A stretch of DNA of 64,000 nucleotides, from contig CM057153.1 of assembly GCA_029962745.1 (NCBI GenBank), positions 38,593,667 to 38,657,666 on the forward strand, read 5' to 3'. Below are positions 6,823 through 64,000 of the stretch, in pieces (position 1 is the stretch's first letter; each line of letters starts with the position of its first letter). Made by a program: the position numbers and the translations under genes. The notes under the pieces are model-generated. The model was not told the DNA's origin and ran no database searches. It saw only the letters and a program-made list of their open reading frames with translations. The stretch comes from Echinometra lucunter. Taxonomy: Eukaryota; Echinodermata; Echinoidea; Camarodonta; Echinometridae.

Positions 6823-9042
6823 TCAGATTACCTCTTGATTGGGTTTGATATCTGCACCACAGCGGGCGCAGGATAATCCTGAGCAGCAGTAAGAAGATGC
6901 TACTATAGCTATGATCATCTCAAAGAGACAGATGACTGACAAGACAGAGTCTGCAGCAATCCGACCAATCTAAGAAGAGAAAAAAAAATGTTCTAAAAAG
7001 AAAGAAAGAAAAAAAGACACGGAGCAATGCTGTCAATTCACAGACTGAACGAGAGCACAGGAAAATCACAACCATCGTAAGAGCTTGTATAATCCATGTA
7101 GGCCTATACTTATTCTCTCTCAAGTAAAATTCCAGAAAAAAATGTATCATCATAAAGTCCTTAGTATAAGAACTTTTTCATGGGATTTCATTACTTTTTT
7201 TTTATTTTTTAGACAAATAACAGTGGACTATATGGCAAAATTTTCCCTTTAAATCATCATGATCATTTTGTAAAAATGGGGAGAAGGTCTATATCGTTGA
7301 GTGCCACAAATGCCAGTGCCATTCTATGTTATTCAATCGAATCAACTTTTAAACTCGAAATGAATGAGATAAAAACAAAATGTGCGTTTCTTCAAGTGAC
7401 ACGCTGTCACAGGCTATGCCTTTGTGCGACATATTTCCCTAGTATTAAAACTATACAATGAAATAAGCATCGTTAGTTTACCTACCCATGTACTCTTGCT
7501 ACAGCACTCGTATCGCCAGTCGCTTTCATAGCATTTCCCTGTTGCTGTAGCACTAATGGCGCTTACAATCATCACCCCACCCGATCCAGTTGCTGTTAGA
7601 ATGGTCATTACCATGTAAGCAATAACCTATAGAAATGATAGAAATATACATAACGAGATGTTTTATGATACTTCATGAGTTGTAGTGGGGTTTTTTTTCG
7701 GTGTAATCATGGTTAGGCCTTATGCATAAAAAGTTTGTCCCCATTAATATTTTTGAAGTTTTTTTAATACAAAATAATATGACAATAATAGTTACATTTG
7801 CATAGCAGTCAATACTACGTTTCTAAGCGCTTTACAAGTACTTACATTATGATTCATTAAGCTCTCTTATAAACTACTTGTTGTTGGGTATTATATGGCG
7901 AGGGACAATCAGAGCTCCATATTTTAGACTAAGCATTAATAATCTTGCTGATATTTCAGATATAAGAAAGCTTAGATAACTCAACAAGTTTCAGAAACGC
8001 TTACCATGTTGGCGCTCTTTTTGAAGCTGCTGATAACGCCAATGACTCCACATGGAAAGAAAACCTGCAGGAGAAAATAAGAAATAATTTTCTTTCTAGT
8101 TAATGGGAGAAAGTTATAATTTGTAAACAAATTTTTCGGCATTACTCCCAGTGTTAAAGATCGTATGTTCGATCTGTAATGAAAATCACAAGTCATAAAA
8201 AATTGGAACCAGTGGGATTCGAACCTGCCATCTATGGCTTGCCGGGCAGCGACTTAACCACCAGGCTATGATCTGGTTCACGGCCAAGTCACGGTGAACT
8301 GGAGTCAAATACCCAAGATCCTCTTCTTTCTGACTCATTAATATGCAACGGTCCGCCGTGGACAATAGATAGTAATTGAAGAAGCTTAATGGGAGAAATT
8401 TATAATTGTAAACAAATTTTCAGCATTACTCCCAGTATAAGTACTAAATAGTAAATGAAGAAACTTAATGGGAGAAATTTATTTATTCATTTGTTTATTT
8501 GAATACATTTATACATGCACAAAAGATCAGCAAACATGTTGTTTTACATCAATGTCCTGATTACAAAGTAAAATGCAACAAAAACATGAAAGTTTAGTAC
8601 ATACATATAAATGTGCAAAGATAATAATGCATAAAGTAATGTTCAGAATACACTTATTAAATAAAACAAAGAAAAAAGGCAAACTCTACAAAGACTAATT
8701 AGTTGTTCTGTAATTATGAGATAGTTGTTTGACAAATATATTCTCATTCTGAATTTTTACGTAGGATATTTTACATATCCAGTTCCAGCCATCACTTGCG
8801 TTGATACTGCAGGTGTCTCCGCTGGGCTCACTTACCAAAGCTGAGCACCATATTCCTGCTCCATACCTCCCTATCCCGGACTCCAGCACGATCTGAGCGA
8901 TCCCTAGAGTGACACAACATAGAGCACCAAAGCAGATCAAGAAGCCTGTTGCTCTGGCGGCAACGGCATTGTAGCATCCTTGATAAGTATTACATCGAGG
9001 AGGAGTTTCATTCTGCTCATGAGGTGTGGCCCCTGTCTCCAT
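6823..9042 (-). CDS. MS4A/CD20-like four-transmembrane protein (four coding exons)
   Basis: Minus-strand exons are 9042-8836, 8064-8005, 7626-7486 and 6969-6832, encoding 69, 20, 47 and 46 residues, all joined in phase 0. Donors are GTAAGT, GTAAGC and GTAGGT; acceptors end CTGCAG, CTATAG and CTTAG. The start ATG sits in a good context (GATCATGG). The product has a hydrophilic N-terminus and four membrane segments: about residues 31-53, 58-84, 91-117 and 142-164. A Cys-bearing loop (KCYESDWRYECC) lies between segments 3 and 4. The GxGIWCSAL start of segment 2 and the overall layout resemble the MS4A/CD20-like family, whose members act as membrane adaptors, chemoreceptors or ion-flux modulators. 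If exon 4 is not spliced at its GTAATC donor, translation stops two codons later at 6823 (184 residues); otherwise a C-terminal exon was missed. The family call is by pattern, not alignment. Confidence 0.65.
8100..8440. repeat. Direct repeat of about 54 bp flanking a SINE, intron 1 of the MS4A-like gene
   Basis: TTAATGGGAGAAA...GCATTACTCCCAGT occurs at 8100-8154 and again at 8388-8440, with a third start of the motif at about 8466. The tRNA-like SINE lies between the first two copies, so SINE plus flank form part of a larger repeated unit. Confidence 0.7.
8195..8345 (-). mobile_element. tRNA-derived SINE
   Basis: The minus strand carries a pol III A-box-like motif TAGCCTGGTGG (8268-8258) and a perfect B-box GGTTCGAATCC (8225-8215) at tRNA-like spacing. 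No cloverleaf with a proper anticodon stem is evident, so this is a SINE head and not a functional tRNA gene. It sits in intron 1 of the MS4A-like gene in the same orientation. Confidence 0.65.
8475..8640 (-). mobile_element. Possible non-LTR retrotransposon 3' tail
   Basis: TTTATTTATTCATTTGTTTA followed by ACATTTATACATGCACAAAAG resembles, in reverse, the AT-rich 3' ends of CR1/L2-type retroelements. No reverse-transcriptase coding sequence is nearby, so the call is weak. Confidence 0.3.
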
Positions 9043-9060
9043 GATCGTTTACGAAGTGCA

Positions 9061-37138: not shown

Positions 37139-37451
37139 GTATGTGCGTTAAAGCGGACTAGTGTTTGTATAGTAAGAGGACCAATTGTGGTGGGCATGGT
37201 GAAAGTTCAGTTGGTTGAACGGGAACCTTAGCGGAGTTGAGACGAGTGGGGCTCAAGCGAATCTAAAGTAAACCCCCAATATACGGTAGCGGAATATAAG
37301 GCTTGTTTGATCAGTCAGGAGTGAGTGTTTAACCAGAGCTGGGAGCTGGTCTGTTGCAACACAAAAGGGCAAGAATACTCGGTAAACTCTCATTTTGAAA
37401 GAGCGGAGGCATACCACTAAGATCTGAGAGGGGCTCTGTTTCTTCATCGAG
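37139..37451 (+). other. Possible 5' UTR intron of frizzled 5/8
   Basis: A donor-like GAAAG|GTATGT at 37139 and an acceptor-like GTTTCTTCATCGAG|TGC ending at 37451 bracket sequence just upstream of the ATG at 37491. The coding region itself has no intron. Several in-frame stops lie upstream, so the interval is non-coding either way. Confidence 0.3.
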
Positions 37452-37490
37452 TGCATCGCAACTGTGTTAACAGTTTATCAAACCACAAAC

Positions 37491-39155
37491 ATGGCTGCCT
37501 TCGGAGTAACAATTTACCAGTCTCCTGCAGTGACAATAATCTTAATTGCTACTTTAACATCTTGTTTCAGTCTTGCGCTGAGTTATCGAGAAGCAAAATG
37601 TGAACCCATTACTGTGCCTATGTGCCGCGATATTGGCTATAATATGACTTACATGCCAAACCATTTCAACCATGATTCACAAGAAGAAGCAGGACTGGAA
37701 GTTCATCAGTTCTATCCACTGGTTGAGATCCAGTGCTCTCCAGATCTCAAATTCTTCCTTTGCAGCATGTATACTCCTATCTGTTTAGCAGACTATCACA
37801 AGCCTTTGATGGCATGCCGATCGGTTTGTGAAAGAGCGAAAGCGGGATGCGCCCCGTTGATGCGACAGTATGGATTCGCTTGGCCAGATCGCATGCAGTG
37901 TGAGAGTCTTCCGGAGTTTGGTGACCCGGAAAATCTATGCATGGATTCGAACCACACGAATTCAGGAACGAGTGCCCCAACCAACCCACCAATGACACGT
38001 CCCGGGGGTCGACGACCGCACCCACCAACCAGAAAACCGTGTGACTGTTCATGTCGTGAGCCTCTCCTCCCCGTCTCCGAATCTCATCCGTACTACAACC
38101 GCGTCTCAACTGGGGAGATCTCGAACTGTGCAACCCCTTGCAGAAGTGCCTTTTTCTCTGAGGATGAACACACATTCGCGACGTTTTGGATCGGATTGTG
38201 GTCCATATTGTGTTTCGTATCGACGCTGATGACTGTCGCAACATTCCTCATCGACATGGGACGATTTAAATACCCTGAGCGTCCAATCATCTTCCTTAGT
38301 GCCTGCTACTTCATGGTCTCACTGGGCTTCATCATCCGTCTCGTCGTCGGGCACGACCAGGTGGCATGTTCCGGTGAGTACGTCCGTGTGGGATCGACAG
38401 GTCCAGCTCTCTGCACCATCGTTTTCCTCCTCATCTATTTCTTCAGCATGTCAAGCTCTATCTGGTGGGTCATCCTTGCTTTTACTTGGTTTCTCGCCGC
38501 AGGGATGAAGTGGGGCAGTGAGGCAATCTCCAGCTATTCTCAATACTTCCATCTGGCTGCATGGCTCCTACCCAGTATCCAGTCCATCGCTGTCCTCGCT
38601 CTCAGCTCCGTTGATGGTGACTCCATCGCTGGCATCTGCTACGTAGGCAACCACGATCTCACCAAACTTCGAGGATTTGTCCTCGCACCACTCTTCATGT
38701 ACCTCATCATAGGGTGTTCATTCCTCCTCGCTGGGTTCGTCTCTCTCTTCCGCATCAGGAACGTCATCAAGCAAGGAGGTCGTAAGACGGACAAGCTTGA
38801 AAAACTCATGATCAGAATCGGCATTTTCTCCGTCCTCTACACCGTACCCGCAACCATCGTGGTCGCCATCTATATCTACGAACAGCATTCCCGACCCGAC
38901 TGGGAGCGAGGTGTTACTTGCCCATGTCTCTCAGAGCACTTACCTAAACCAGAATACTCAGTATTTATGCTCAAATATTTTATGTGCCTTGTTGTTGGAA
39001 TCACATCTGGTGTGTGGATTTGGACTGGGAAGACGCTGAGTTCGTGGCGTGGTTTCGTGAATAGGCTACTCGGGAGGAAAGCATATCCCAAGAGAGAAAG
39101 AACTTTCAACTGCAAACCAGTGATTCTTAAAACTTTACCCAATGGACAAGTGTGA
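37491..39155 (+). CDS. fz5/8: Frizzled 5/8-type Wnt receptor, intronless
   Basis: A seven-pass receptor that binds Wnt ligands at the cell surface and signals through Dishevelled. The 554-codon frame starts at ATG 37491 in a strong context (AAACATGG); a GTG nine codons upstream in the same frame is not a plausible start. A signal peptide covers about residues 1-32. The cysteine-rich domain has its ten cysteines (37, 45, 82, 91, 98, 109, 113, 120, 137, 150) and NxT sites at 51 and 154. A Pro-rich linker with CDCSC leads to seven membrane segments at about 228-254, 262-286, 304-337, 352-372, 394-420, 441-463 and 491-513. The Dishevelled-binding KTLSSW lies at 514-519. YHKPL, ERAKAGCAPLMRQYGFAWP and KTDKLEKLMIRIGIF identify the 5/8 class. 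The tail is short and ends LPNGQV, where a Ser/Thr at position -2 would be expected for a class I PDZ ligand. The lack of introns agrees with vertebrate FZD5 and FZD8. Confidence 0.97.
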   Translation: MAAFGVTIYQSPAVTIILIATLTSCFSLALSYREAKCEPITVPMCRDIGYNMTYMPNHFNHDSQEEAGLEVHQFYPLVEIQCSPDLKFFLCSMYTPICLADYHKPLMACRSVCERAKAGCAPLMRQYGFAWPDRMQCESLPEFGDPENLCMDSNHTNSGTSAPTNPPMTRPGGRRPHPPTRKPCDCSCREPLLPVSESHPYYNRVSTGEISNCATPCRSAFFSEDEHTFATFWIGLWSILCFVSTLMTVATFLIDMGRFKYPERPIIFLSACYFMVSLGFIIRLVVGHDQVACSGEYVRVGSTGPALCTIVFLLIYFFSMSSSIWWVILAFTWFLAAGMKWGSEAISSYSQYFHLAAWLLPSIQSIAVLALSSVDGDSIAGICYVGNHDLTKLRGFVLAPLFMYLIIGCSFLLAGFVSLFRIRNVIKQGGRKTDKLEKLMIRIGIFSVLYTVPATIVVAIYIYEQHSRPDWERGVTCPCLSEHLPKPEYSVFMLKYFMCLVVGITSGVWIWTGKTLSSWRGFVNRLLGRKAYPKRERTFNCKPVILKTLPNGQV

Positions 39156-53230: not shown

Positions 53231-53340
53231 GCAAGAGGATTTTGGAGTATTCATTGCATTGATACTGCAAGAGGATTTTGGAGTATTCATTGCATTGATA
53301 CTGCAAGATGATTTTGGAGTAATCATTGCATTGATACTGC
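53231..53340. repeat. 36-bp minisatellite, three copies, in the 3' UTR of the microexon gene
   Basis: The unit begins GCAAGAGGATTTTGGAGTAT and includes TCATTGCATTGATACT. Copies 1 and 2 are identical or nearly so and copy 3 has two or three changes. It lies 55-165 bases past the stop codon of the minus-strand gene, so it is probably transcribed as 3' UTR. Confidence 0.85.
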
Positions 53341-53395
53341 ATTTCTATAAGCTGATAAACTACTTCAGGATCCAGTGTCTTGCTTCACTGAGCCT

Positions 53396-56300
53396 TTACT
53401 GCACACAGTCTGAAACAAAGATAGAAATGTAAACAAGCGAATAAGGCAACTAATTCACTGAACATCAGTCAGAACTACTGCATTAACATATTCACAGTAT
53501 ATGCATAGATTGTCCTTTTCGAATTTCATCCGATATGACTGCCGGTACGCTATTTTTTAAAAGGCAGATCGTTTACAATCATAGTTTGATAAGCGAATGG
53601 AGGTAGTGTGTAAAGTAAGAAACCATTTCTTGGACGAGGAACCTACTAAATTCTCTGATCTGACTCAAACCATATTTCATTGCTAAATTAGATTCCAAGA
53701 ATATTCCGATTTTTCTGGACAATCCAATACTTATACGATCAACATGAGGGTGCTATCACACTTTTGCTACACCTACCCGCCCTTCACCAATAACTATCAT
53801 CCCACCTTTAAATCAAACATGCATGTGGTATTTTTTTTTGGGGGGGGGCTACAACCTCATTAGCCCCATCTCGTATGCCTATTGCGATGAGTAATCATTA
53901 TTCTCGATAATCGGATCACTTACGGATTCGGCATTTGCGTCCTCCGTTGCAAAAGCCAAAGACATAGCGGAATCGGCCTTCATCCGAGTCTTGGATGACA
54001 AGACTCTGACCGGACCCATTGGTGACTTCACACTTTTTCTGGTTGATGGTGACAGTGATCCGCTCCTTTCGGTTCTTTACGATGAATGGTCGTTGGACCG
54101 GTTCGCACTGATTAACTCCGGCTTGGTTGGTGATGACAGACGGGCCTTCTGTGCTCAATTCTTTGTTGGGAGAACACATCAAAAGTAATAATGACACCAT
54201 TAAAAACAAACCAACTAAAAAGAAAACAACAGAAGGACATAGAAAAGGAAAGGGAGGAGAATAATGATTATTGATTATGACATAGGCGGATCCAGGGGGG
54301 GCCGAAGCGGCCGCGGCCCCCCTATTGGCGAAGCAAAAAAAAAAAAAGAGAGAGAAAAGAAAAGAAGAAAAAAAAAAAAAGAAAGAAAAAAAAAAAGAAA
54401 AAAGAAGAAGAAGAAGAAGAAAGAAAATGAAAGGGCTATGGCAAAATTTCAGCTTGCGCTTCACGCTCGCATGCTTTCATCTTGAGAGTTATAAGAAAGA
54501 ATTACAAAGAAGTATGATTCATTTTATGGGGACTTTTCCGCTCACGCTTAGGGCTCGCATATATGGGGAAGTTGATTAGGTTATCATCAGTTTTAGAATG
54601 AGTTCAAAATAAATGAGAGGCAAAATTGCTCTGCCTTCAGGTTATTGTAAACCAAAATCTCGGCTCGCGCTTCGCGCTCGCAATTGTCATTGTCACTTCC
54701 TCAAAAAAGTCTATTTCCAAAGTTGAACCACAGTAAAAAAATCCTAGGTACAGGACTGACAGAGACTTACACCCATAATGTAATACTGGGGTAGAGTTAC
54801 CATTCTCAATCGACAAATTCGCGATTGCTGTCGGAAAAAAATGAGAAAGAAAGGAAAGGGAATAGGATGAAGGGGAAAAAGAAAGAAAAAGAGGAGTAAG
54901 GTGCCCATATTCGGTTTATTTGCTTGTTCATTTGACGACGAAATAACACTGGTACCACGAAAGAGAGTGTATATTTTTCCTCGCTCGCTGCGCTAGCTCG
55001 TAAGTTCGGAAAGCAAACACATTCGGCAAGCAAACACATTCGGCAGGTGTGATGAACAAATATATAATCTAGATACTTTTCGGCAAATCATGTATTTGGA
55101 TGAAGAATTATCACTTCTACCACAAATATATATATATATATTTTCGCTTGTATAATACAAGATGGTCTTTTAAAGCAAATAAATTAGACAGGAGAGGTGA
55201 CCGCATATTTCAAAATAGAAATCTCAAAGGCCCATCGAGTATTTTGATGAAGAACTTTCACTTTTACCATGAAAGGGAGTACATAATTATGTATTTTCTG
55301 CGCTCGCTATGCTCGTTCGTACAATACTCAGATACAAGATGGATTTGGGAAAGCAAACTAATTCGGCAAGCGAGGTGACCAATGCACATATAAAAAGGTT
55401 AGTTATCTCGTGATTAATACCATCGTGTATTTGGATGAAGAATTATCACTTCTACCATTACAAATAGTATATAGATTTTTTTCCTCGCTCGCTGCTCTCG
55501 CTCGGATTGAATTTAAATACAAGATGGTATGGAAAAGCAAACGAATTCCGCAAGAGAGATGACCAAATGTACCTGTATACATAAAAGTCACATATTTCAT
55601 GATTAACACCATCGTGTATTGGGATGAATAATTATCACTTTTACAATGAAAAATAGTATACAGATTTTTTCCTCGCTCGCTGCTCTCGCTCGGATTGAAT
55701 TTAAATATAAGATGGTAGGGAAAAGCAAACGAATTCGGCAAGAGAGATGACCAAATGTACCTGTATACATAAAAGTCACATATCTCATGATTAATACCAT
55801 CGTGCAATGGGATGAAGAATTATCACTGCCCCAATAAAAAATAATAGTATATAGATTTTTCCTCGCTCGCTGCGTTCGCTGGGATTGAATTCTAATACAG
55901 TATGGTTTGGAAAAAGCAAACGAATTCAGCAAGCGAGGTGACCAAAATATGTATATGTATAAGTAAGATATCTCATAGTTAATTCTTCAGTGTATTTGGA
56001 TGAAGAATTATCACTTCTACCATGGGAAAGGTATATATTTTCCTCGCTCGCTGCGCTCGCTCATATAATATCAAGATTTAGGACGGTCTTTAAAAGCGTA
56101 TCAGGCGAAAGAGGTGACCAAATAGGCCAATGTTATCTTTAAGCCCATCATGTAGTTTCATGAAGAACTATCACTTCTACGAAAGAGAGTGTAGAATTTT
56201 TCTCGCTCGCTACGCTCGCTCGTTTTGTATTTAGACACAGGGTGTTTCCGGAAAGCAAACACATTCAGCAAGTGAGGTGAACAGTTATATCATTTAGAAG

Positions 56301-59300
56301 AAAATGTGACAGAGGCATCCAAAGCCTCGTGGGCTTTATACGGTTGAATTTATCGACATTAGTTGTCGGTAATCACTGGTATTGTTTGTTGGCAATCTGG
56401 CCTCTACACCCCTCTGCGACGCCCCTGACGATTTTCTTAATTTGGAATCTCAAAAATCATCAGATCGCGCTTCGCGCTCGCATTATCCATCATTTCCTTT
56501 TTACTCAGGAAAAGGAGTTTTATAATACCTCAATTAAAGATAACTATTTCAAGATAATAGGCGCATCTACCTCTGTGTGTATGTGGGGGGGGGGACCCAC
56601 AACTTATTTATTACGCCACTGAGTGCAGCCTTAAACCATACGTTTCTAATCGGTTCAAGCGGTTTTTAAAGGCATTGGCTAACATTGTTATGATTTGAAA
56701 AAATCTTGTTTTGTTACTTGAAAATGGGATAAACATAAGGATTATAGTGTAAAAATACCAGTCTGAAAGTTTCAAAGTATAATATCCACAGGAAGTATTT
56801 TTAAATATCAAAAATGTGAACCAATGTTTGAAAAATATACGACGGTCGGTTGCATAGAATAGACATAAGGAGTGCGCATGCGCGTATGACTCACCTTACC
56901 GTACTGTGTGTATTGGCGTATCACGCGGCGGGAGGCACATAACAGGATTTTCAAATTCAAACAAAGTGGTCCTCTTAGTGATTGTCTCGTGAGACGAAGG
57001 ATAATAAAATCGCCGTTTGCGTCTAACTTACACTTTTTCATTCCAAATTAGGGTTGGTTTCAGGGTTTTTGAGTACAAATACAAGTACTCATACACATGT
57101 TTCATCTTAGTTTGAGAATTTTTTAAATCAGCTACTCACAAAGTTAGCCAATGCCTTTAAACATTTCGCCCCCCCCCCATCCCCTATTGGAGAATGCTGG
57201 ATCCGCCCCTGTTATGATAATGATGATTAGAAAGAAGAGAAAGAAGAGAAAGAAGAAGAAGAAGAAGAAGAAGAAGAAGAAGAAGAAGAAGAAGAAGAAG
57301 AAGAAGAAGAAGAAGAAGAGGAAGATGAAGAAGGATAAGAAGAAGAAAAATAATAAGAAGAGGGAGAAAAAAGGAGCAAGATCAGTAAGTTGATCACTGG
57401 CAAGTTACCATAATATTTGAAAATCCCTTATGGTTATGGAAATGATTCGAAAATAATTGATTTTTCTCAATGAGACATATTTTATGACTGCTGTCACAAG
57501 TTTCTTTCTTTTTTTTTCCAACATACTGGTGGTAGTGCAAAGTCAAAACCAGGGGAGCGTTTCATGAAGAGTTTTGTCGGTGAAAATCACCGACAAATGT
57601 TATAAGCTACTGAAAATCCTCGCATCTGATTGGCTGAAAGCAAATTAGTCAGTGAAAATCACCGACAAAACTCTTCATGAAACGCTCCCCAGGCCGTGAA
57701 CCCTCCCGATTGGAAAAGAGGCACTTAATATCAGAGACAAGGCTAGCCTTTTGACAAGGCCTCGCGACTCAGCTTATTTTCAGTGGCTGAGACTAGACTA
57801 GCCAACGACGAAGAGAAATTGAGATACCCCGGGTGAAGGGGCGATCGAGCGACGTCAGTCCATGGTCGAGCGAGCTTTCGTGATTAGTCTTCTATTAGTC
57901 GCTCGGCGTCTGATATAAACATCACATCAGGCACAGGGACACGGGGCCCTGTCTAAAGGCTAAGACAAAGAGGGCACTGACACTCATGGCAAGACAGACG
58001 TACAAATGGGACGTACTAGAAAGATAAAAGGGGTCCTTATCGGAGGTGAGAAGGGACACTTAGCAGAAAGGAAACTGCACAATGAGAAACAAGAGACAGT
58101 CAAAAAGGTGCACTTATCACAAAAAGTGGTGGCACAGCGCCCCCGCCTCCTCTCTCCCGGGATCACCACCCCTGTTCATATGCCCTATACTCAAGCATCA
58201 TTCTTTCCAAGTGAATTTCTTCTACCAAAGTAGCACTTCTTTTTAATACATTTTTAGTAGGTATAGGTTTTGACGCTAAGATATTCTGATCGGGGTTTGT
58301 ACGAAAGCTCCTGCTACAAATGGTTCTTGGTTAAATGGTTATTATTCTGCACGAGCCCAATTCCTCACATTAACCCCAGACCAAACACTCTCCCTAACCC
58401 TTATCATGACGTTGAAACTAACTTAAAACCCCATTATCATGATTATCCCTAACGTTAAACTTTTTACGAAACAAACTCAAGAACGCATATCTATGGAGCA
58501 AATATAGGATCACATCTGGGGAGCGTTTCATGAAGAGTCTTGTCGGTGATTTACACTGATTAATTTGCTCTCGGCCAATAAGATGCGAGGATTTTCAGTA
58601 GCTTGTAACAATTGTTAGTGAAAATCACTGACAAAACTGTTCATGAAACGCTCCTCTGGTGGGGCTTTTCTTACTCATGGTGTAGGTGTCACCGTATGGA
58701 TCATTAGTGGCGCCGAAGATGATTTGGAATTCCCTAGCATCGGTCTTGATCAGGAAAGACAGTTCGAAAGGCGGAAAGACCGATGCGATCAGCTGTGGTT
58801 GACGAGAACACTCCACGAACACGGCTAAATAAAAACAATAATGAACGATCTATTACTCTAGCTGCCGTGTGTAAACGTAATCTGTTAAGTCATTCCTTGG
58901 TTTATAATCATGATAATCTATGTACTGAACTCTGCATGATGGGTGTGTAAGTGTGAGTGCGGAGTTGCAGATTCCATCGTTGAACATTCAACATGCTCAA
59001 GTATAAAAGTAGATCTAAAGCCCACCGCACATAATATGTATATTATACAATCCGTCTGCTATCCGATTTTGGAAAAAGAAAATATTGCATTTTATATGAA
59101 AATTCAAACATGTAAAATCGTAACCATCAGAGTTCCAAATAGGCGTATGAATACTAAAATCAGAAAATCGAAATTTCGAGCTACTGCGAGCCTCCCTATA
59201 GGAATAAAAGCGAATTTTATCCCGAGTCGTAGTGACGTCATGGTAATCTTGTGATCGGCAGCCGATTTGGCCTTTACTCCGACCACAAGGCTGCAGTTAA

Positions 59301-62094
59301 CCAAAATTTCGATTTTAGTATTCCTATCATTATTTCAAACTTCAAATAAGATAATTTCATTTTAAATGAACCTTTTGTATTTCATGCAAAATGCCATATA
59401 TGTTCGAAAATCGGGTCGCAGTCGGATCGTATGGTGTGCGGTGGACTTAACGAGCATTGTGCCCCACGTGCCTTTATTGGAACCACTTTGTACACATTCA
59501 TGTTATCCTTAATCCCTTTCGTGACTAAATTATGTAGTACTGCTAATATTAAATTCCTCTGGTACAAAAATAAATATGATTACTTGAACAGTTGAATATA
59601 AAGAAGATTGGAAACCAGAAGGAACTTACGAATATCGGGATCAGCAGGGTCTGTAATAAAAGAAGATAAATAGGGTATATAAAGTGACCATCCAGGGTCA
59701 TAGCTTTCTAAAAATAATTATGTGCATTTTTTTTTTGGGAGCCCCTGTACAAAGTCTTTGAGAATAAAAAGAATACTAAAGCCAACGGTGTAAATACGAT
59801 TTTATTCCATATGGATGGAATAAGTTACTTTTACTCTTCATTGCAATCTTGAGAGAATGTGTTCTGTAAAATCTTTGCAGGAGAATCATGAGAATAGTGA
59901 AATAGTTCTCAGCACTTTTTGTTTGCACTTGATCATGTACATGATGTATTATACGCAATATAATGGATAAATTCAAATTACATTCAAAAAGAGTTGTATG
60001 TTAGATACTCATATTTGCATAGGAAACTATGAAAAGAATTCACTTGCAAACAAACTTTATTGGTTGTACACTAGAAAGAAAAACAAGAAGAAGAAGAAAC
60101 TTACCAGTAGTAGTAGGGGCAAGGACTATTACAAGATAAGAGAAACGGTGGTAAATCATGTTACAGAGTCATGTATCTTTGTATTCTAAACGTGCATTAT
60201 GGGGAGCGATATGTATGCCATTTATGATTTGACTTGAAATGTAGTAAATTACTCGTAAAGTATTTCTTTTCATTGCAACCTGCAGCTTACATTTTCTCGA
60301 AATCTTTGCTGGGAAAAAGCTTCTTTGATGTTGTTGTATTTGAGCAAACGCTCAAACGGTAGCAAACAATACTGTATTTTATACATAATGTTAAACAAAA
60401 GTTGTATTTCAGATCTCAGTTAGCATGACAAATTACAAACAAAATATTCTTACTTGAGCATAGAATATGTCGGGTTTGTTTTACACAAGAAATTAGAAGA
60501 AAGTAAAGGAAACCTACCCGGAGCCGGAGGAGGAGGTGGAGCAGGGCCTAATAAGAGAAGGGAAACACAATCATGTTACGACAGTCATATAGCTTCTTAA
60601 AACATGCATGTGCCCGATGGGAAGCCTACGTCTGCTGTTTTAATGACTTGACTTAAAAGGGAAAATAGTACACTCTTATTTCTGCGGAGTCAAATTTGAC
60701 TCGCACTTGAGTCAGCTGGGAGTCAATTCTATTCGGAGTTAAAGTGACACGGATTTCCGAATTTATTTGACTCAGAATGGAGCTACTTTGACTACAATTT
60801 AGTCGATTCTCAGTTTACGCCACATCATTCCGAGTCAAATTAATTTGAAAATCTGAGTCACTTTGACTCCCAGCTGACGCCATTCCGAGTCAAATTTGAC
60901 TACGCAAAAATTAGAGTGTATTTCCTTAGTTCTGTTCGTAATGCTTTTTAAACACTTTCCACTGTAATCAACAGAGAAGGAGTCATTAAAAAACTTTGCT
61001 TGAGAACAGTCTAACAGTTACAAGCAAAGCGTATTGTTGTTGTTTCTTGTTACAATTGACATGACTGAAGAAGGTATTCTGGGCCAACTCAAACGGGGTC
61101 GGGTATGAAACATGCAGAAATTTAACGTACATTTCTTAACAACAGCAGGCAAACAGATATCTGAATAACGCAGCAAACCAAAATAAACGGATTACTTACC
61201 GCTTCTTTCTCCTATAGAGGAAAAAATAAAAAAAGAAAGAAAATAAGACATTCATAATGATATAACGATAATGGTCAATTTATTTGTAATATGCATCGCA
61301 GCCCGGAAACTAAATTGCGCAATTTTTACAAAAAAATATATACATGATAAGAAACATACCGACTGCAATTGTAAATACATTATAAACTTACACAATACTA
61401 CGAAAAAATGCCGCTGAATTGTAGTACAATTCACATTAACATACGTGGAAAAGAATAATGTACTGTATGTACATACATCATTCTTTTCTTTTCTTTGAAT
61501 TTATGAAATTATCTTCATATATCTCCCTGGACAGTTGTTCCCTATGACTTCTTTTTAAATTTTCAATTGTATCGTTTTTTTCCGGCGTTTTGGTATACAC
61601 CATGGCCAAGAGCTGCGAACAAATATCTTTTTCAATTATCTTTCAAAGCATTATATTCTCTCTCAACACTTAGATATCAAATGTAATAAGCTCGGCATTT
61701 CATGTAGTTTGTACTCACATCAAAATTCAAATTTAAAGTCCACTGGGAAAGAAATCTGCTAGATTTGAACTTTACTTCTTTTTGTGACTGAGCCGAATGG
61801 ATGATGTAATTTTTTCCTTAAGATAGATCGGAGTGATTACGAAATAGTTCAATTCAAACACCTAAAAGCTCGCACCCAAAGGTTGCATGGTTCTGCCATT
61901 CACTCATTTCCTCGTGTTTGGGATGCATTGCCTACTTCTCTTAAGATCGACATTGTATTACTCTCCTTTCACACCTGGCTCTTAAAATTAAAGGAGCAAG
62001 TCCTCTCTGTGGATTAATTATATATACGACTTTTATTAGTATTGTACATGCATATGATAAATCCGTAATCATTACATGATCTTTACACGATGAT

Positions 62095-62134
<40 letters not shown>

Positions 62135-62310
62135 TGCTTGTTACGGCTAGCTGCGCAGCGCCCTCCATCTCCACATGTGTCGGACCTGGGTACATGTATC
62201 ACAGCACCATTTATGGTGCGTGTTTTACGTGTGCCCAGGGCGACATTCTTACCTATCCTTAATTTGTATATGTTCTTTTGTTTGTTGATTCTGCCGAATA
62301 AAATAATAAA

Positions 62311-62343
<33 letters not shown>

Positions 62344-63055
62344 GAAAAAAACAGATCTATATCAGTGCTTACCAGAGCTTGATCCTATATGCGATTGTAA
62401 AAAACAAGAGAGAAAAAGATAGGACAAAATTAATTCGGAGTGGTAGAGGACTTCGCGACACAAATTAGACTACCGATTCTTTCATAGAGGTTTTCAAATC
62501 TTTTGATATTTGATTTTAGAATATGACCTCCTCCCTAAAAAACAAAAAACAAAAACAAAAACAAACACAGAAAACATAACAAAAACGAGGGTAATGTGTT
62601 TACAATCCCTAACCTAGTCATGCTAGTCAAGAACCTCAAGATAAACTACAGAGTTTAAGAAAATCTCAAGAATACCTTGTTTTAAAGTCTTTACAAGACA
62701 AAGATACAGGATGAAGCCCTGATATTATATAGATGCAAGTGTGTCTCCACAAAACTATAACTCTCATGTCGTATCATCGTCTCCCAGATTCTTATGTAAG
62801 TGTTAGAGTCAATCAGTAAAAAACAATCACTCGTTTCTCATTCTATTCTCTCCATTTTTGAATATTTTGAAGCTGTTGAAAATATTCCTAGTAGGCTAAG
62901 ATAGGCTATATCATAACATTTTGATTATACCATCGCCAGGTAGGTCAAATGAGCCTATTAATTTTGTCTTGATGTAAATAGCATAATTTATACATGTAAG
63001 TATGATATCAATCTGAATGCAATACTAACCACCGTTGCCACCTCCTGTAATGTGT

Positions 63056-63098
<43 letters not shown>

Positions 63099-63350
63099 CA
63101 TGAAATCTTCGTCATCTGCTAAACAGTCCTTCATCTGTGGAACATTTTGACGGACTGGCGTCTTTACGAATCAGTTGAAACGTTGTTGTGATATTGAACA
63201 ACACTGTGTCTTGATTTTCTTTATTGCTTTTGTTTTGTAAGGATAAGACAAAGAAATGATTTAAATTTCATTTAGATTAAACGTCATAAAAGAAATCTTT
63301 TCTATCTTATTACAAAGAATACTAACCACTGTTGCTGCTTGATCCGCCAC
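53396..63350 (-). CDS. Secreted-type protein gene with a phase-1 microexon array (5' end beyond window)
   Basis: Ten minus-strand exons: 63350-63327 (24 nt), 63044-63030 (15), 62384-62373 (12), 61211-61200 (12), 60547-60518 (30), 60125-60105 (21), 59650-59630 (21), 58824-58675 (150), 54148-53924 (225) and 53409-53396 (14, with stop). Every exon has an AG acceptor and a GT donor of GTAAGN, GTTAGT or GTAGGT type, every internal length is a multiple of three, and every joint is phase 1. The microexons read GGGSSSNSG, GGNGG, SSSG, ERSG, PAPPPPPAPV, LAPTTTD, PADPDIP, a Gly/Ser then Pro/Thr linker. The two large exons encode about 125 residues, beginning VFVECSRQPQ, passing SFLIKTDAREFQIIFGA and VQRPFIVKNRKERITVTINQ, and ending FGFCNGGRKCRIHCVQ. 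There are six cysteines and alternating hydrophobic residues, suggesting a disulphide-bonded beta domain. The layout loosely recalls the farnesoic-acid-methyltransferase-type domain, but I cannot confirm that. Codon third positions in the large exons are GC-rich, as in real genes. Confidence 0.75.
54930..56290. repeat. Tandem array, ~188-bp units, with CTCGCTCGCTGCGCTCGCTC palindromes
   Basis: Units begin near 55091, 55238, 55426, 55615, 55803, 55991 and 56151, with a partial one before. Each carries TTTGGATGAAGAATTATCAC, then TTTCCTCGCTCGCTGCGCTC, then GGAAAAGCAAACGAATTCGG. Four central units are spaced 188-189 bases; the outer ones are shorter. Related GCGCTTCGCGCTCGC motifs occur outside the array at 54445-54680 and 56465. 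Confidence 0.9.
56670..57156. mobile_element. TTAA-flanked inverted-repeat element, nested
   Basis: AGGCATTGGCTAACATTGT at 56670 pairs with ACAAAGTTAGCCAATGCCT ending 57156, and TTAA flanks both sides (56666-56669 and 57157-57160). The type is the same as the element at 47883 (TTAA target, AGG start), but the termini differ. Non-coding. Confidence 0.7.
57231..57340. repeat. (GAA)n microsatellite
   Basis: About 90 bases of AAG triplets with short interruptions. Confidence 0.95.
57554..57688. mobile_element. 135-bp MITE with 5-bp target duplication, copy 1
   Basis: Begins GGAGCGTTTCATGAAGAGTT and ends in its reverse complement, with arms of about 40 bp. CCAGG is duplicated on both sides (57549-57553 and 57689-57693). 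It lies in the same intron as the hAT-like element. Confidence 0.85.
58521..58654. mobile_element. 134-bp MITE with 5-bp target duplication, copy 2
   Basis: Same ends as the element at 57554 but the interior is inverted. The target duplication is TCTGG (58516-58520 and 58655-58659). It ends only about 15 bases from the GTAAGA donor of the 150-nt exon of the microexon gene, so it could affect splicing of that exon. Confidence 0.85.
59019..59447. mobile_element. PIF/Harbinger-like MITE
   Basis: Termini AGCCCACCGCACATAATATG and, in reverse complement, AGTCCACCGCACACCATACG, with TAA on both flanks (59016-59018 and 59448-59450). A 3-bp TWA duplication is the PIF/Harbinger signature. It lies in the intron between the 150-nt exon and the microexon at 59630. 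Confidence 0.7.
60671..60918. mobile_element. TA-flanked inverted-repeat element rich in GAGTCAAA
   Basis: CACTCTTATTTCTGCGGAGTC at the left pairs with the right end ...GCAAAAATTAGAGTG, and TA lies on both sides (60669-60670 and 60919-60920). GAGTCAAA-type octamers recur in both orientations through the interior. It is a Tc1/mariner-like non-autonomous element in an intron of the microexon gene. Confidence 0.65.
61880..62344 (+). mobile_element. 3' end of a non-LTR retrotransposon (reverse-transcriptase C-terminal relic)
   Basis: 61880-62017 reads RLHGSAIHSFPRVWDALPTS and on to LLSFHTWLLKLKEQ before TAA. The RVWDALPTSLK...SFHTWLL pattern matches the C-terminal tail of CR1/Jockey/L2-type reverse-transcriptase proteins (typically xxWNxLPxxxxxxxxxxxFKxxL). 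A 3' UTR with a 36-base poly(T) run at 62096-62131 and a (TAA)n tail at about 62300-62344 follows. It is 5'-truncated and lies antisense in an intron of the microexon gene. Confidence 0.6.
63059..63095. repeat. (AG)n microsatellite
   Basis: About 36 bases of AG, 15 bases upstream (in gene sense) of the 15-nt microexon's acceptor. On the minus strand it is a CT tract and may strengthen that acceptor's pyrimidine context. Confidence 0.9.
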
Positions 63351-63413
63351 CTGGCAAGGAAAAATAATCCAAAAGAAATTTCCTTTATAGCTATCTTCTT
63401 ACAAACACTACAT

Positions 63414-63620
63414 ACACTCTTAGCAAAATGGTGCTGATTAGAAAGCTTTCTTGTCCCACATCATCTTTAATGGTCCTTCAAAGAACCATAACTTGCCTAT
63501 AAAGTTTCTCTAAAGGGGGTTTAAGAAACTTTAGTTGCTGTCCAAGGAACCTTTGGTTGTTCTTGAAAACATAAATAACCCTGAAGAGAACCCCCTTTTT
63601 TGAGGTTCTAAATACGGCAC
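63414..63620. mobile_element. Partial element beginning TACACTCTTAGCAAAATGG
   Basis: Starts with the same TACACTCTTA as the element at 60671. It contains several AAGAACC/GGTTCTT blocks in both orientations (63477-63600). The right terminus is not clear. Non-coding. Confidence 0.4.
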
Positions 63621-64000
63621 AAAAAATGTTCAGAAACGCATTTCAGTTATTAGTTCACCGAGATGCTGACAATTAGTACTGCTAAGATCTCTTTTTAAAA
63701 GGATGCAGCAATACTAATTCGAATTCTTTTATTGTTTGTTTATTCTGTTGTTTCTTGTGCAAAATTCATAAACATTGTTACCCATCTTGTATGAATGTTG
63801 AACACCTCCTTAAAAAACAGCCCCCAAACAAAACACAAAGAAACAAAAGCATATACTGTGCGTGTGTGTGTGTGTGGTCTTTTTTTTTTTTAAGGGGGAT
63901 GGCTGTGGAAAGTTTCTCCAGCGACGTCTATTAAATTTTTTAATTTTCAGTGATTGTATCACTGGAAGACATTTGATGATTTAATCATGAATGGCACCTC

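Follow-up and report, generated by a model that had tools for sequence, protein, structure and literature searches.

Seven symmetric microexons encoding a putative modular linker in the 3' part of a sea urchin gene

The sequence analysed here is a stretch of 64,000 nucleotides (nt) from the sea urchin Echinometra lucunter (GenBank assembly GCA_029962745.1, contig CM057153.1, positions 38,593,667 to 38,657,666; hereafter the window), within which ten readable exons on the minus strand form the 3' part of one gene (Table 1). The first seven of these (E1 to E7) are microexons that add up to 135 nt, and their acceptors all end in AG. An earlier note on this DNA had listed seven microexons of 24, 15, 12, 12, 30, 21 and 21 nt on the minus strand, each preceded by AG and followed by a donor of the GTAAGN, GTTAGT or GTAGGT type; direct reading bore out the exons at the coordinates of Table 1, and the splice sites likewise. 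Its further claim, that all seven are multiples of three, lie in phase 1 and stay in frame with two larger phase-1 exons and a stop, was confirmed by spliced translation: the nine exons before the last one all have lengths divisible by three, all junctions are in phase 1, and the spliced frame runs for 178 residues without an internal stop. The first residue of E1 is uncertain, its codon taking its first base from an exon beyond the window, and Gly was assumed at this position. From E1 to the last exon the introns measure 282, 645, 1161, 652, 392, 454, 805, 4514 and 514 nt. A candidate exon at 54827, whose acceptor is strong (score 7.4) and whose donor is gtaagt, was omitted because its phase-1 join to exon 9 creates a TAA stop, whereas the direct join of exon 8 to exon 9 stays in frame.

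Table 1. Readable exons of the predicted gene, listed from the 5' side of the minus strand.
Feature	Position	Strand	Length (nt)	Phase	Residues	Donor	Remarks
Microexon E1	63327..63350	-	24	1-1	(x)GGSSSNS	gttagt	acceptor score 4.2, donor score 0.5
Microexon E2	63030..63044	-	15		GGGNG	gttagt	
Microexon E3	62373..62384	-	12		GSSS	gtaagc	acceptor the weakest among the seven
Microexon E4	61200..61211	-	12		GERS	gtaagt	both splice sites strong
Microexon E5	60518..60547	-	30		GPAPPPPPAP	gtaggt	putative tandem duplicate of E6 and E7
Microexon E6	60105..60125	-	21		VLAPTTT	gtaagt	putative tandem duplicate
Microexon E7	59630..59650	-	21		DPADPDI	gtaagt	putative tandem duplicate
Exon 8	58675..58824	-	150	1-1			first part of the C-terminal domain
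Exon 9	53924..54160	-	237	1-1			second part of the C-terminal domain; acceptor weak (score -2.6)
Last coding exon	53396..53409	-			HCVQ		followed by stop TAA at 53398-53396

The microexons together specify 45 residues, 33 of which (73%) are Gly, Ser, Pro, Thr or Asn when the assumed first Gly is counted. E1 to E4 contribute Gly, Ser and Asn together with one Glu-Arg, and E5 to E7 contribute Pro, Ala, Thr and Asp besides one each of Gly, Val, Leu and Ile. The description of this segment in the earlier note as a modular Gly/Ser-Pro/Thr linker holds for the Gly/Ser-rich N-terminal end and for its modularity, any subset of the units being droppable without a frameshift; the C-terminal end is more accurately called Pro/Thr/Asp-rich. 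Downstream of the linker, exons 8 and 9 were scored with the codon usage of a Frizzled gene that lies elsewhere in the window, and for both the predicted phase-1 frame was the best of six (0.35 and 0.26 bits per codon respectively).

The density of such exons was compared with chance by counting AG...GT pairs of 6-36 nt that were a multiple of three in length and open in phase 1, with control windows of 4.4 kilobases (kb) taken at a 200-base step and hence overlapping. The splice-site score tables followed a general metazoan consensus and the thresholds derive from the exons under study, so that the exact ratios are soft. At weak thresholds, for which the poorest acceptor and the poorest donor among the seven served as cut-offs and which therefore flatter the array somewhat, the array side held nine open in-frame candidates (the seven and two more), against a mean of 1.03 (maximum 4) in 299 plus-strand control windows and 0.74 (maximum 2) in 276 minus-strand ones. 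At strong-site thresholds the array side held four candidates and no control window more than 1, the control means being 0.07 and 0.08; this comparison is independent of the weak exons, but it draws on four exons only. In 200 dinucleotide shuffles of positions 59601-64000 there were 1.2 candidates on average and never more than 5, compared with eight observed, E7 being out of reach of this count. The excess over both control windows and shuffles bears out the expectation that all frames and lengths would rarely agree by chance. Composition differed in parallel: Gly, Ser, Pro, Thr and Asn made up 60% of the residues in the nine array candidates versus 28% in 24 control candidates.

Two extra open in-frame microexon candidates lie inside the array on the minus strand (61397-61392 and 61160-61131), without Gly/Ser or Pro/Thr composition. 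They fit the background and could be noise or extra optional exons.

Similarity among the microexons and their surroundings was examined with non-overlapping blocks around E1 to E8, giving 28 pairs with 300 dinucleotide shuffles per pair. Three pairs had scores that none of their 300 shuffles reached, namely E5-E6 (score 52, shuffle maximum 18), E6-E7 (26, maximum 18) and E5-E7 (19, maximum 17); the best of the other 25 pairs was E1-E2, reached by 4 of 300 shuffles, and E3-E4 was reached by 32 of 300. When flanks of 140 nt were scored separately, E5-E6 was reached by 0 of 200 shuffles on both sides, and E5-E7 by 0 of 200 downstream and 1 of 200 upstream. A version with lenient scoring, in which shuffles also scored high, gave z values of 6.7 for E5-E6, 4.1 for E5-E7, 2.5 for E6-E7 and 1.9 for E1-E2, with one shuffle equalling E6-E7; its top pair (the tail of intron 4 against U4) overlapped itself, and the stricter non-overlapping tests were used instead.

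With flanks included, identity is 68% between E5 and E6 (265 aligned positions) and 66% between E6 and E7 (149 positions); E5 and E7 match each other directly over a short stretch of the downstream intron, 35 positions at 86% identity. Both of the longer alignments span upstream intron, exon and downstream intron, and in that of E5 with E6 the donors coincide and the acceptors are offset by some bases, consistent with the 9-nt difference in exon length. The copied unit was therefore an exon together with its surroundings, with start-to-start spacings of 422 and 475 nt. On these alignments E5, E6 and E7 are best described as diverged tandem duplicates of one ancestral exon with flanking intron, so that the Pro/Thr half of the linker would have grown through duplication of exon-plus-intron units. 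The general property cited in the earlier note, that symmetric exons can be duplicated, is thus borne out at this locus by tandem copies that the note did not mention. E1 and E2 are identical at 17 of 18 nt across the exon end and donor, their flanks show no clear similarity (14 of 200 and 30 of 200 shuffles), and a common origin of the two is possible.

Repeats of other kinds occur in and near the same gene. The intron before E5 contains nested inverted repeats (60669-60920) rich in GAGTCAAATTTGACTC-like motifs, with outer arms of 58 nt that are 88% complementary, and these resemble a small mobile element. Exons 8 and 9 are separated by an intron that contains a tandem array at 55332-56062 (188-nt unit, 3.9 copies, 82% match), and a 36-nt tandem repeat (3.1 copies, 97% match) lies shortly past the stop at 53231-53341, probably in the 3' untranslated region.

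Taken together, the open frame, the density, the composition and the duplications make it very probable that E1 to E7 are real coding microexons of a gene with a 45-residue modular linker, and that E5 to E7 arose by duplication; this degree of confidence covers the gene model and the duplication, and variable splicing lies outside it. Several observations weigh against that conclusion. The donors of E1 and E2 are non-consensus and the acceptor of exon 9 is weak; the E6-E7 similarity is weaker with separate 140-nt flanks (11 of 200 shuffles upstream and 3 of 200 downstream); and the real frame of the spliced linker, scored with the assumed G in front at 0.21 versus 0.11 and -0.11 bits per codon, is the best by a small margin, although 45 codons of biased composition make this little of a test either way. 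In addition, the 133-residue C-terminal part that follows the linker has no convincing family match in Pfam, NCBIfam or PDB sequences.

This C-terminal part contains six cysteines and one N-x-S sequon, from which it is fair, and no more than fair, to suggest that the protein may be extracellular. Pfam matches below the cut-off (Glyco_hydro_65C and AfaD) and a PDB match to an adhesin at an expectation value (E) of 1.4 were taken as noise. One scan each of viral and prokaryote contig collections confirmed no relative of the domain, as expected for a gene from an animal: of 9 and 37 pattern matches respectively, tblastn upheld none. A tblastn of the domain against the window at E up to 10 recovered the two exons that encode it, besides a single match at E 9.2 that was attributed to chance. 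A structure prediction for exon 9 alone, made without an alignment, had a mean predicted local distance difference test (pLDDT) score of 39.5 and was discarded. The C-terminal domain gave the impression of a FAMeT-like pattern (Pfam PF12248), for which the Pfam scan gave no support: FAMeT was not among the Pfam matches at E up to 10, in a scan that filters out the bulk of matches above about 0.1 and whose copy was unchecked for the presence of this model. FAMeT domains occur in sea-star footprint (adhesive) proteins (PMC9382459). The likeness to those adhesive proteins is no more than this impression, and the 133-residue part is not a detected member of the family.

We propose that the seven microexons encode a modular, probably disordered, linker, a flexible spacer that would connect the cysteine-containing C-terminal domain with the part of the protein encoded upstream, beyond the window. 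With all exon boundaries in phase 1, retaining, skipping or duplicating any one unit leaves the frame intact, and over evolution linker length may change through exon duplication. We infer that at least some microexons may be included in part of the transcripts only, with the length of the linker varying; E1 to E3 are the likeliest optional units because the donors of E1 and E2 and the acceptor of E3 are weak. A (TC)18.5 microsatellite on the minus strand (63059..63095; AG on the plus strand) ends 14 nt before E2 and makes up most of its polypyrimidine tract. It might be speculated that the length of the (TC)n allele, if the repeat is polymorphic as we assume, alters E2 inclusion. UGC motifs, which are used by the vertebrate microexon regulator SRRM4, are absent from the 60 nt upstream in seven of eight exons. 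The fullest version of this proposal is micro-exon-gene-like diversity outside flatworms: seven optional units giving up to 128 in-frame forms of 0 to 45 residues, still growing by exon-plus-intron duplication, with E2 inclusion set by a polymorphic (TC)n. As a whole we regard that version as quite improbable.

Constitutive splicing of the same microexons is compatible with the gene model, and competes with the inference of a variable linker alone. Here the linker would be fixed at 45 residues and its introns would be a by-product of tandem exon duplication and phase-1 exon shuffling. The strong splice sites of E4 to E7 favour this possibility, as does the fact that E5 to E7 appear to be old duplicates that kept coding, which fits steady inclusion; the weak sites of E1, E2 and E3 speak against it, as does the difficulty with which exons of only 12-15 nt are often included. 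We consider constitutive splicing a serious possibility, if somewhat short of an even chance, and nearly as likely as a variable linker.

A further alternative accepts E4 to E7 as real and holds that some or all of E1 to E3 are chance AG...GT pairs with weak sites, picked for their fit. Only four of the seven exons passed the strong-site thresholds, weak-threshold candidates arise by chance about once per 4.4 kb, the two extra candidates within the array fall outside the Gly/Ser pattern, and GDSSS, a candidate among the 24 from the controls, is as rich in Gly and Ser as these exons. However, all three exons translate to Gly, Ser and Asn (the first residue of E1 being assumed), compared with the low share of such residues in controls, and E1 and E2 resemble each other at exon end and donor as duplicates would, if with flanks that do not clearly match. 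This alternative we judge unlikely. A decayed pseudogene, or splice-like motifs that line up by chance where there is no gene, would agree with the lack of a homologue in the searched collections, none of which held animal genomes, and with a 5' end beyond the window, but this reading is highly improbable given a frame open through ten exons to a stop, coding scores that are best in the right frame for exons 8 and 9, and an array that exceeds its controls.

Elsewhere in the window, an uninterrupted open frame on the plus strand (37428-39155; 575 codons from stop to stop) is a Frizzled gene encoding a complete-looking receptor. It matches the Pfam Fz domain and the Frizzled membrane region; the top PDB sequence match is Frizzled-5, and the top matches for the cysteine-rich domain (CRD) only are to Frizzled-8. 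On the minus strand an open frame of 117 codons with a hydrophobic stretch (8695-9048) resembles a membrane-protein exon by eye; it has no Pfam match above the cut-off, and a DNA_ligase_C match below it was taken as noise. The window has no Rfam match at gathering thresholds.

The best-known examples of symmetric microexons in series come from schistosomes, in which they are believed to generate variant proteins. Consecutive symmetric exons of 6-36 nt account for about 80% of the coding region of schistosome micro-exon genes (MEGs; PMC5825161), the products are almost always secreted or surface-exposed (PMC5825161, PMC8293314), and the introns are long with exons that are mostly multiples of three (PMC10526429). 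One review describes MEGs as seemingly restricted to schistosomes (PMC8293314), while the heading of a section in PMC5825161 refers to an ancient origin. The sea urchin locus likewise has a run of short symmetric exons (seven, of 12-30 nt, in phase 1) that can be dropped without a frameshift; it differs, as far as its visible part shows, in that microexons amount to 135 of 536 visible coding nt (25%), the 5' part lying outside the window, and in that a two-exon domain follows them.

The hinge of human immunoglobulin G (IgG) offers a second comparison. The hinge is encoded by one exon in IgG1, IgG2 and IgG4 and by up to four in IgG3, with a length of 12-15 residues in the former and up to 62 in the latter (PMC4202688). 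The likeness to IgG3 is that of a proline-rich linker lengthened via tandem duplication of short exons, here E5, E6 and E7 with 0 of 300 shuffles per pair. IgG hinges lie between immunoglobulin domains, however, whereas the duplicated units here encode 7-10 residues and no immunoglobulin domain was matched in Pfam on the C-terminal side of the linker, the N-terminal side being outside the window. Tropoelastin has in-frame cassette exons of low-complexity sequence that are alternatively spliced. This locus resembles it in having in-frame low-complexity exons, and differs in that it has no Lys/Ala crosslinking-type exons and that its exons are shorter.

Among the matches listed in exact-word searches of the open literature on microexons or symmetric exons in sea urchins, echinoderms or tandem linkers, none has a title or opening of an abstract that describes such an array, which is weak evidence of absence. 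Genes of this kind are ones that automatic annotation may misread; a study of plants reports that annotation frequently gets microexons of up to 15 nt wrong or overlooks them (PMC8831610). The locus would appear to work like the MEGs and the IgG3 hinge, which are its nearest comparisons rather than groups of which it is an established member. Another animal lineage with such an array, whose introns still display the duplication that enlarged it, would allow the rise of these arrays to be followed.

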